The notes under the pieces are model-generated. The model did not search any database, had not been told where the DNA came from, and saw nothing but the letters and a program-made list of their open reading frames with translations. Source: Mycoplasmataceae bacterium (GTDB taxonomy: Bacteria > Bacillota_I > Bacilli_A > Mycoplasmatales > Mycoplasmoidaceae). From it: DNA of 38,695 nt. The translations under genes and the position numbers were made by a program. The DNA is taken from assembly GCA_031258945.1 (NCBI GenBank), contig JAIRME010000010.1, forward strand, positions 1-38,695, read 5' to 3'. This document shows positions 1-38,695 of the stretch, one piece after another (within the stretch, counting starts at the first letter, position 1; each line of letters begins with the position of its first letter).

Positions 1-1743
1 TCATTCATTCATTTTATCAAGAAACATATTCTCCCTTCCAAATTCTGAATTGCTGGAATACATATTAGCAAAATATATTTCTCCTCTATTTCAAGTGTAA
101 GGATAATTATCGTAATCGGAAATTGGTGTTGATCATGTATTAAAGTTTCCAATTCCATGGATTGAAAAACTTGTGCATATACCTGCTCTAGCTACTCCTT
201 GCCCATCATCAATGCTTCCTATCAATGATTCTCCTAGACTGTTAGGTGTATTTTTCAATCAATAACATAATCCTAATACTATGTCTCAATAATATAGTTC
301 ATTAGTAATATCCACATCATCATTTTCTAGAGTATATAAAAGACCGGCATTATCATTGTTAATATTACTTGTAATATCAAATCAATCTGCCATAGTCATA
401 ACACCATCTGCTCACCCAATTTTGCTATTCAAATCAACATTTAAACTTTCAAGTTTATTTCGAGCTTCTGCAATAACAACATCAACATTGCTTGAGTCTA
501 CGTATAGATCATTTTCTTGCTTATCATCATAAGGTAGATTTACTCAATTTACATCTACTGACGAATCTTCATAAAAAAGTCCACCTTGTGGATTAGTAAT
601 CGTGCAAGTACGATGTTCTTGATCTATGTCAAAAGTAGCTCCATCAAGAATGGAACTTCATACTCAAGAAATTGTTAGTGGGATTTGTGTTTCATTTTCA
701 GGATCATTTAATCTGATTCCATCAATAATATCTTGTTTGGTTACATTGCCATCGTCTCAATCAATGCTTGAGGTATTAGCAGTTTTTAAATTATGAAAAT
801 CAATGGCTTCATCTAATGAATATTCACCGATGGGAATTAAAAAATAAAATTTGATGCTACCTTTATATTTTGAATCACCAATATTTGCTTCAATCACTCC
901 TCCATAGACATTAGTCAATTTAATACTGCAAGCTGCTTTTAATTCAGTTTGAGCATCAGCATCTATTTGTGGGTTAGCAATAAAAAACTTAGTCCAAAGC
1001 GCTTCAGTTTCATGCTCATTATGTAGTAAATTACCGATATACGGATTACCATAAGTCATAAAAGAATTTATATCAATTTTGAACGTATAGGATATTGTAA
1101 TGTCATTGCTATTAAATCATCCATAATCATTGGATTTCATTGAAATATGTGCAATTTTATGTTGATTGTCTGGCCCAGGATCTGTTGAAGTATTAGAATT
1201 ATGTTGTATATATTGCACTGTGGTTAGATTCTTAATGGTGTTTGGATTAGAATTCATGATTTCTTCAAAAAGTTCTGTTAGATCATTGTCTTCCAAACTA
1301 TCGTTTAATGAAGTATTTAAAATAAGAGTATTAATATCCACATTCAGTACTATAAAAGTTACATGCAATGGATTTTTAAATGTTTTATCGTCTTGATTGA
1401 GAACTAATCTAACACCAGTTACATCCTTAGTATTTACATCAAAGTGACAATGACTCTTAATTTTATTTTGTAATTTTTTTGATACTTTATTTAGTTCAAA
1501 TAATTTATTGAATAATGTATCATCATTGTTGTTTGGTACACCTTTTAAATCAGTAATTTTAAATATGTAAGATAAATCAGTTTCATTATCTAAAGTATTG
1601 TCATGATTATTTGCTCAAATCGCATATCCTATGCTCACTCCCGTACCGCAAGTTAATGTGGCTATAGAAGCAACAATTAATGCCCTTTTAGATTTACGTT
1701 TCTTTTTTCATGCTTGGTATTCTTTATTATTTACATTTATCAT
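1..1743 (-). CDS. Large signal-anchored surface protein, 3' end outside window
   Basis: At least 581 codons read from ATG at 1743 to the window edge with no TAA or TAG; several in-frame TGA codons are read as Trp, which is why the frame looks broken under the standard code. Residues 13-20 are strongly basic (KKKRKSKR), followed by one hydrophobic segment at about 21-42, then a long Asn/Asp/Ser-rich region. This predicts an uncleaved N-terminal anchor with the bulk outside the cell. A Cys lies in the hydrophobic segment (LTCGTG), but the lipobox fit is weak. A GGAGTGGAG Shine-Dalgarno sequence precedes the ATG. The N-terminus resembles that of the protein at 28258-29448. I recognise no catalytic domain. 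Function unknown; surface exposure is inferred from topology. Likely expressed from the poly-C promoter at 1885-1905. Confidence 0.85.
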
Positions 1744-1773
1744 ATTCTCCACTCCGGTTTATAAAGTAATAAA

Positions 1774-1807
1774 AACAAGTCCTTTAGCTAAAGCATAAGG
1801 TCTTGTT
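1774..1807 (-). terminator. Terminator-like hairpin in the leader of the surface gene
   Basis: Inverted repeat AACAAG(T)CCTT at 1774-1784 and AAGG(T)CTTGTT at 1797-1807: a 10-bp stem with one mismatch and a 12-nt loop. Read on the minus strand, the 3' arm runs into GTTTTTATT, as in an intrinsic terminator. It lies between the predicted promoter (1885-1890) and the ATG at 1743, so it could act as an attenuator. It could instead end a short transcript, with a second promoter nearer the gene; TATAAA at about 1758-1763 is a weak candidate. Confidence 0.5.
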
Positions 1808-1829
1808 ATGGTTAGAGACAAACGATATT

Positions 1830-1846
1830 TAGTACTTACCGTACTA
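1830..1846 (-). other. Leader hairpin, perfect 6-bp stem
   Basis: TAGTAC at 1830-1835 pairs with GTACTA at 1841-1846 around a 5-nt loop. It lies in the predicted 5' leader of the surface gene, between the G8 tract and the terminator-like hairpin. Possible first element of an attenuator. No known riboswitch class recognised. Confidence 0.35.
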
Positions 1847-1856
1847 TTACATTTAT

Positions 1857-1905
1857 CCCCCCCCTATTTATCTTCATATGCTTCATTATACAATAGGGGG
1901 GGGGG
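1857..1905. repeat. C8/G10 homopolymer inverted repeat around a promoter
   Basis: C8 at 1857-1864 followed by TATT, and AATA followed by G10 at 1896-1905, form a 12-bp inverted repeat. The minus-strand TATAAT (1890-1885) lies in the loop. Runs this long are exceptional in this AT-rich sequence. Both tracts are prone to replication slippage, and together they could extrude a cruciform. Confidence 0.8.
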
Positions 1906-1917
1906 TATCTTAGTCAT
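1885..1917 (-). promoter_or_regulatory. Promoter with C10 spacer tract, surface gene
   Basis: On the minus strand TTGTATAAT has its -10 hexamer at 1890-1885 and is preceded by TA and C10 (1905-1896). The best -35 candidate, ATGACT at 1917-1912, matches TTGACA at 4 of 6 positions but is 21 nt away. About four fewer C residues would give the preferred 17-nt spacing. Tract length should therefore set promoter strength. The same layout recurs at 29519-29552. Confidence 0.65.
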
Positions 1918-1963
1918 AAAATATTTTTTAATAGGACATTTAATATCCTACTTTAACTACCGT

Positions 1964-29518: not shown

Positions 29519-29552
29519 ATTATACAACGGAGGGGGGGGGGAATTGAGTGAT
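29519..29552 (-). promoter_or_regulatory. Promoter with C10 spacer tract, second surface gene
   Basis: Minus strand: TTGTATAAT, -10 at 29524-29519, preceded by TCCG and C10 (29541-29532) and then AATT. The -35 match is weak (ATCACT, 29552-29547, 3 of 6, spacer 22). Beside the copy at 1885-1917 it shares AT[GC]ACT, the ten C residues, TTG before TATAAT, and GAAGATA[AG]AT 10 to 14 nt downstream. It lies in the spacer after purH. Confidence 0.65.
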
Positions 29553-38099: not shown

Positions 38100-38695
38100 T
38101 TATTTATCCTCTGGGAAAGTAACATTATTTCAGTCAAAGAATGATATTCAACATACCATATTTGATGTGAATAACTCATCTTTGAACTTTATGCGTCTCA
38201 TATAGTCCATTTCATAAGCTTCTATACTATGACTCGTTGCATCAAATGGCTTGCTAAAATCAAAATTTCATGTGGATTCATCTTTGTCTCCAATAGTAGA
38301 ACATGCAATGTTTTGATTAATATAGCTTACATTCTCCCTAATCTCGTATGTTTCTGAGACTGGATTCATGTTTATTTCATGTGGTTCTTTGTATAACATT
38401 GCAGTTCAATTGAATTCATTATTTGTCACATTCAAATCTATGGATATAACTTGTGATGAATATCATTTAATAAAATATTCTCAAAGAAACGCATTGCAAA
38501 TAAGTTGAATATTAATTTCCTTTTTAACAAAATTGTAATCATCTTCGTTTGAGCTTAAGAAAAATTCATGAACACCACTAGATTCTTGTTTATGATCTAC
38601 CAAATATTGCATAACTTGATCTGGTGAAGTAAACTCCCAATGAGTTTTCTTAGCGCACGAGGTGAGAGAAAAAGTTAGAGTACTAATCCCCCCCC
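38100..38695 (-). CDS. Lipoprotein, 5' end outside window, G tract in signal peptide
   Basis: About 198 codons from the window edge to TAA 38100; no stop with TGA as Trp (five or more TGA). The first visible residues are GGISTLTFSLTSCAKK: the end of a hydrophobic signal with lipobox LTSC, so Cys would be lipidated and the rest displayed outside. The first codons come from a run of at least eight G on the coding strand (38695-38688), which is cut by the window edge. The mature part of about 185 residues is rich in Asn, Glu, Ser and aromatic residues. No domain recognised. Upstream start and promoter unseen, so frame through the whole tract is not proved. Confidence 0.75.

Follow-up and report, generated by a model that had tools for sequence, protein, structure and literature searches.

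Phase variation through promoter spacers, in which a homopolymer lies between the -35 and -10 elements, is known from the porA and opc genes of Neisseria and the vlp genes of Mycoplasma hyorhinis. In attenuators of the trp and his type, whether a terminator acts depends on the translation of a leader peptide. A leader-peptide attenuator that is itself phase-variable has been established experimentally for the pil1 locus of Streptococcus gallolyticus, where expression is low if at least 28 nt separate the leader-peptide stop codon from the terminator that follows, and high if the gap is 4 nt or the stop falls inside or beyond the terminator (PMC3894217). The pil1 and pil3 loci, two loci in one species, use 5-nt GCAGA repeats within an ORF led by a Shine-Dalgarno sequence, as proven by mutants (PMC3894217), and in the literature searched these two pilus loci of one Streptococcus are the only experimentally shown cases of the mechanism. 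In Candidatus Mycoplasma girerdii, in-frame repeats cause phase variation of BspA-like and mod genes (PMC5476646).

The window, which is the whole stretch of DNA analysed (38,695 nt), is contig C33 of an 835-kb assembly of a Mycoplasmataceae bacterium in 46 contigs, with TGA read as tryptophan. A surface gene cut by the contig end is probably controlled by a two-stage phase-variable switch, to judge by the arrangement of its upstream region: a C tract in the promoter, followed by a leader-peptide attenuator (Table 1). As in porA, opc and vlp, a homopolymer lies between the -35 and -10 elements of a surface gene; as in pil1 and pil3, a slippery repeat lies in a short leader-peptide ORF with a surface structure encoded downstream. 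As in pil1, an intrinsic terminator (hairpin P2 with its U run, which covaries) lies between the start of the upstream ORF and the gene. Unlike the two pilus loci, the leaders described here occur at 20-45 loci in each genome of the richer species, use repeats of 1 or 2 nt and are known from sequence evidence; they have a leaderless ATG at the putative transcript start, an extra hairpin (P1) and, often, a second switch in the form of a promoter C tract.

Table 1. Promoter, leader and gene features in the window
Feature	Position	Strand	Remarks
-35-like hexamer ATGACT	1912-1917	-	4/6 match to TTGACA; weak
Promoter spacer, 21 nt	1891-1911	-	Between ATGACT and TATAAT
C10 tract within promoter spacer	1896-1905	-	Run scan and promoter survey
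-10 hexamer TATAAT	1885-1890	-	Exact
ATG of upstream ORF	1875-1877	-	7 nt past TATAAT, at the expected transcription start (leaderless)
G8 tract inside upstream ORF	1857-1864	-	About 30 nt beyond C10, in the transcribed leader; absent from the initial annotation
Upstream ORF as assembled (G8): MKINRGGINVIVR	1836-1877	-	Stop about 28 nt before terminator; predicted OFF
Upstream ORF in open frame (G9 or G6), 39 codons	1759-1877	-	Passes through terminator; predicted ON
Hairpin P1: G tract and following sequence paired with pyrimidine-rich strand	1810-1864	-	Family covariation
Terminator hairpin P2 with U run	1770-1807	-	Family covariation
Downstream gene, 581 codons, start at 1743	1-1743	-	Cut by contig end; N-terminal membrane segment (..KKKRKSKRALIVASIATLTCGTGVSIGYAIW..)
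C10 tract in second promoter, without leader	29532-29541	-	Absent from the initial annotation
TATAAT of second promoter	29519-29524	-	
Gene behind second promoter, 396 aa	28258-29448	-	N-terminal membrane segment
G8 in signal-peptide codons of lipoprotein gene: GGISTLTFSLTSCA	38688-38695	-	Absent from the initial annotation

The promoter spacer

On the minus strand, the promoter reads 5'-TTTTATGACTAAGATA-CCCCCCCCCC-TATTG-TATAAT in the window. The initial annotation had described a C10 tract on this strand between ATGACT and a perfect TATAAT, with a spacer of 21 nt, and re-reading of positions 1885-1917 bore out every detail. It had also proposed that changes in spacer length switch the gene. 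A spacer homopolymer before a surface gene, found at about 20 loci in the genome, strongly suggests a switch of this kind, and a poly-C spacer switch is plausible at this locus. However, the G8 tract and the attenuator had been overlooked; these carry better evidence than the promoter switch, and alone they predict that the downstream gene is off.

The window is AT-rich and contains only four C/G runs of six or more (lengths 8, 10, 10 and 8), so few that the C10 tract in the promoter is not ascribed to chance; each of the four belongs to a putative surface gene, at whose promoter, leader or signal-peptide codons it lies. C runs of at least eight are common in the source genome, where tract counts rest on pattern searches and on regions fetched around the tracts. 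In these regions, an exact TATAAT lies within 30 nt downstream of 21 of 66 distinct oriented tracts of this length, with about one expected (the background is 1.5% per 35-nt window), and within 30 nt upstream of none (0/66). In near-identical paralogous promoters at other places in the genome, the tract is C8, C9 or C12, and a lipoprotein signal or else a membrane segment is found at the start of most of the genes behind C-tract promoters. Unlike in porA, opc and vlp, the -35 elements are weak, the distances implied between -35 and -10 elsewhere in the genome are 14-25 nt or more, with a few loci having no -35 element in range, and the promoter is stacked on an attenuator.

The strong enrichment of spacer C tracts before TATAAT, and their presence at genes that have no leader, such as the one behind the tract at 29532, would also suit a simpler arrangement in which the poly-C spacer is the sole switch and the leader serves as a constitutive 5' UTR whose G tract arose by accident. 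This is unlikely, given that leader G tracts with conserved flanks are found at about 18 loci, many of them without a promoter C tract, and that the pattern formed by ATG, reading frame and terminator is strong. The C and G tracts on either side of TATAAT could alternatively be the inverted arms of an invertible promoter, since several loci of the source genome have C7-N(16-46)-G7 pairs and the reversed order was never found there by pattern search. We give this very little credence: TATAAT points to the leader in every leader inspected, many leaders have a G tract but no C tract, and the arms would be bare homopolymers. With no reversed copies and all inspected leaders facing their gene, an invertible promoter is disfavoured.

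The leader RNA family

The leaders share a fixed order of parts, consisting of a promoter, an ATG 5-7 nt past TATAAT that opens a leaderless upstream ORF, a G or GA repeat, P1, P2 and a surface gene. In an alignment of G-tract members, the leader spans about 100 nt and comprises P1, with a pyrimidine strand opposite the G tract, and P2, which carries a U run and lies about 30 nt upstream of the gene. A covariance model detected about 20 copies in the source genome (20 of them full), with about 95 others spread over six sister species, the richest of which has up to about 45. In many of the sister-species leaders, (GA)n replaces Gn while the order of parts is unchanged. Base pairing in P1 and P2 is supported by 15 pairs that have changed on both sides; none of 500 shuffles scored as well, and slid controls were far lower. 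Folded alone, the window leader has a z-score of -4.95, and its P2 was not reported by a simple terminator scan. No Rfam family matched the leader at the gathering score (tRNAs were the only matches), and nothing convincing turned up outside the genus when 198 genomes of the order were searched. Among the matches outside the genus (in G055, G131, G153 and G171), L225 proved on reading to be a plain terminator.

With few exceptions, the genes downstream of the leaders encode lipoproteins or single-pass membrane proteins. No Pfam match was obtained for the surface genes of the window, including the gene at 1-1743, an ORF that is open only under code 4 (TGA as tryptophan). Leaders or C-tract promoters were also seen before a few genes that do not look like surface genes, namely L199 (G033:C11), L171 (G034:C37) and L082, which by eye from the sequence are alcohol-dehydrogenase-like, coiled and NAD-synthase-like.

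A conserved P1 and terminator, with the purine tract paired to the pyrimidine strand of P1, would also be found in an ordinary cis-acting attenuator or riboswitch that senses a ligand, a protein or a stalled ribosome, with the purine tract playing a structural part. This explanation is quite unlikely in view of the absence of an Rfam match, the variation in tract length among near-identical copies, and the consensus fold, which consists of P1 and P2 only, with no second, mutually exclusive hairpin found. On inspection, the leader peptides also have no obvious common run of regulatory codons. Like the trp and his attenuators, the leader would have its terminator governed by leader-peptide translation; unlike in those systems, no regulatory codons or sensed metabolite are seen, and the state would be written in the DNA.

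A G tract in a leader also recalls Helicobacter pylori, in which RepG binds the G tract of the tlpB leader (PMC8295292). Were a trans-acting small RNA to bind the leader G tract here, tract length could tune the binding. However, many members of the family carry GA rather than G, the G tract already has a pairing partner in cis, and the reading-frame pattern would be left unexplained, all of which makes this highly improbable beside a leader-peptide attenuator.

Reading frames of the upstream ORF

An ATG lies 5-7 nt past an exact TATAAT in 53 of 65 leaders, compared with 23 of 209 other TATAATs in the genome (11%); the remaining 12 of the 65 leaders have no ATG at this spacing. The rate at the other TATAATs is in keeping with the existence of leaderless genes, and about 16% of mRNAs in M. 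pneumoniae are leaderless-like (PMC10568206). The frame set by this ATG is free of stop codons up to the tract. In 30 distinct G-class sequences there are 0 in-frame and 34 out-of-frame stops between ATG and tract (p=1e-6), in 31 dissimilar representatives 0 and 26 (p=8e-5) and in the GA class alone 0 and 9 (p=0.06), although p-values that count leaders separately are too small because the leaders are related by descent. Despite this kinship, the dissimilar representatives give concordant evidence, as do the tract-less leaders and both tract classes.

Beyond the tract, the three frames part ways: typically, the first stop comes within about 20 nt in one and inside P1 in another, and the third is open to the P2 loop or further. 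As in pil1, the repeat number modulo 3 places the stop either before the terminator or in or past it; of 58 G-class leaders, 54 have exactly one frame that reaches P2, while the GA class is mixed, with one frame reaching P2 in 15 of 37 leaders and two reaching the base of P2 in 22 of 37, where the second usually stops. With both classes pooled, 69 of 95 leaders have exactly one frame that reaches P2, where shuffles lead one to expect 41. One of the closed frames in the G class often ends only 10-23 nt before P2, between the two pil1 limits, and the OFF state may therefore be partial, or an intermediate level possible.

Leaders that have no tract appear to be locked in the open frame. By a fixed rule, five of five are open, a sixth (L239) is likewise open on reading of its sequence, and all six retain a start codon. 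One leader without a start codon, L200, has all frames closed and precedes a gene of 44 codons that is probably broken. Of the assembled G-class leaders with a tract, 17 of 56, or about one third, are in the open frame, which is what free drift of the frame predicts, and tract length varies between near-identical paralogous leaders (G9 and G10; GA tracts of 16-42 nt), these assembled lengths being consensus values of a metagenome assembly. A functional upstream peptide was considered and rejected. Since the peptides differ between the G and GA classes, it is openness rather than peptide sequence that seems to be kept.

Proposed mechanism

In the first stage of the proposed switch, slippage in the C10 tract would alter the distance between the -35 and -10 elements and with it the strength of the promoter, independently and upstream of the second stage. 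In the second, better supported stage, the transcript would start at or beside the AUG of the leaderless upstream ORF. Past the G8 tract this ORF enters P1, and one of the three frames continues into P2, which lies directly upstream of the gene. The frame would be picked by slippage in the G tract, or in the GA tract at sister loci, and anti-termination coupled to translation, with tract length making the choice, is the simplest explanation. In two frames, the ribosome would halt before P2, allowing P2 to form and transcription to end (OFF, or possibly an intermediate level if the stop is close). In the third, the ribosome would enter or pass P2, which then could not form, and the gene would be transcribed (ON). 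P1 might conceivably provide a pause during which the ribosome catches up. The leader would work like that of pil1, and homology to pil1 is not implied.

Slippage in the G8 tract of the window would shift the reading frame of the upstream ORF. Because this ORF, as assembled, stops 28 nt before P2, the window copy is predicted to be low or OFF when judged by the pil1 limits. By the same analogy, one more G (G9), or a tract of G6, is predicted to open the frame and give high expression.

On balance, we favour an interpretation of these leaders as a genus-level system of antigenic variation. Every genome would then have dozens of surface genes, each behind its own frame-shifting attenuator with a leaderless start, and many of these genes would also have an independent tract in the promoter spacer. 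The resulting large combinatorial surface repertoire would depend on transcription termination rather than on protein frame or recombination; stops near P2 may add an intermediate third state. The logic of the pilus loci, carried out with different parts (one- or two-base repeats and a leaderless start), would then be a principal means by which uncultured wall-less bacteria gate their surface genes, and transcription-translation coupling would serve as a standing bet-hedging device. If so, the on and off states of dozens of loci would be legible from DNA, which makes the predictions directly testable in metagenomic reads.

Other tracts and loci

The lipoprotein gene at 38100-38693 has its 5' end cut, and the contig ends inside its G8 tract; a copy with a longer 5' sequence is present in L076. 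G tracts in signal-peptide codons were seen at 38688-38695 of the window and at L076:1502-1510, L062:3073 and L063:2969 (for example, ..LVGGGISTLTFSLTSCA). From their position, these tracts would represent classical in-frame phase variation, as a third device beside the other two. Repeat-length frame switching in a mollicute would be a feature shared with M. girerdii; unlike in that species, the main repeats here lie in the upstream ORF and would act on transcription, leaving the protein start intact.

A search with MnmG among named genomes gave a single relative, 'Mycoplasmataceae bacterium Pc512_bin88' (62% identity), in which the poly-C promoter is absent at the corresponding place. In the sister genome G009, G7-N-C7 is present, in the reversed order, and the forward order is absent. 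Another sister genome has a C run of about 46 bases (G011:C4:17758-17803). A GA-class leader at a contig start of the source genome, L235 (G000:C16:1-93), is identical over the aligned stretch to L247 (G032:C25) of another species, the result of either recent transfer or cross-binning. Many contigs of G000 (C4, C7, C14, C18, C24, C33, C35, C36, C41 and C42) have an end at a C/G tract or leader copy, or no more than a few hundred bases away from one, much as though the assembly had been broken by repeats or by mixtures of tract lengths. Finally, at L060:8523 a C8 promoter is followed by a leader-type ATG (TATAAT-N6-ATG) in frame with a lipoprotein start, an arrangement resembling a deletion of the hairpins that joined the upstream start to the gene.
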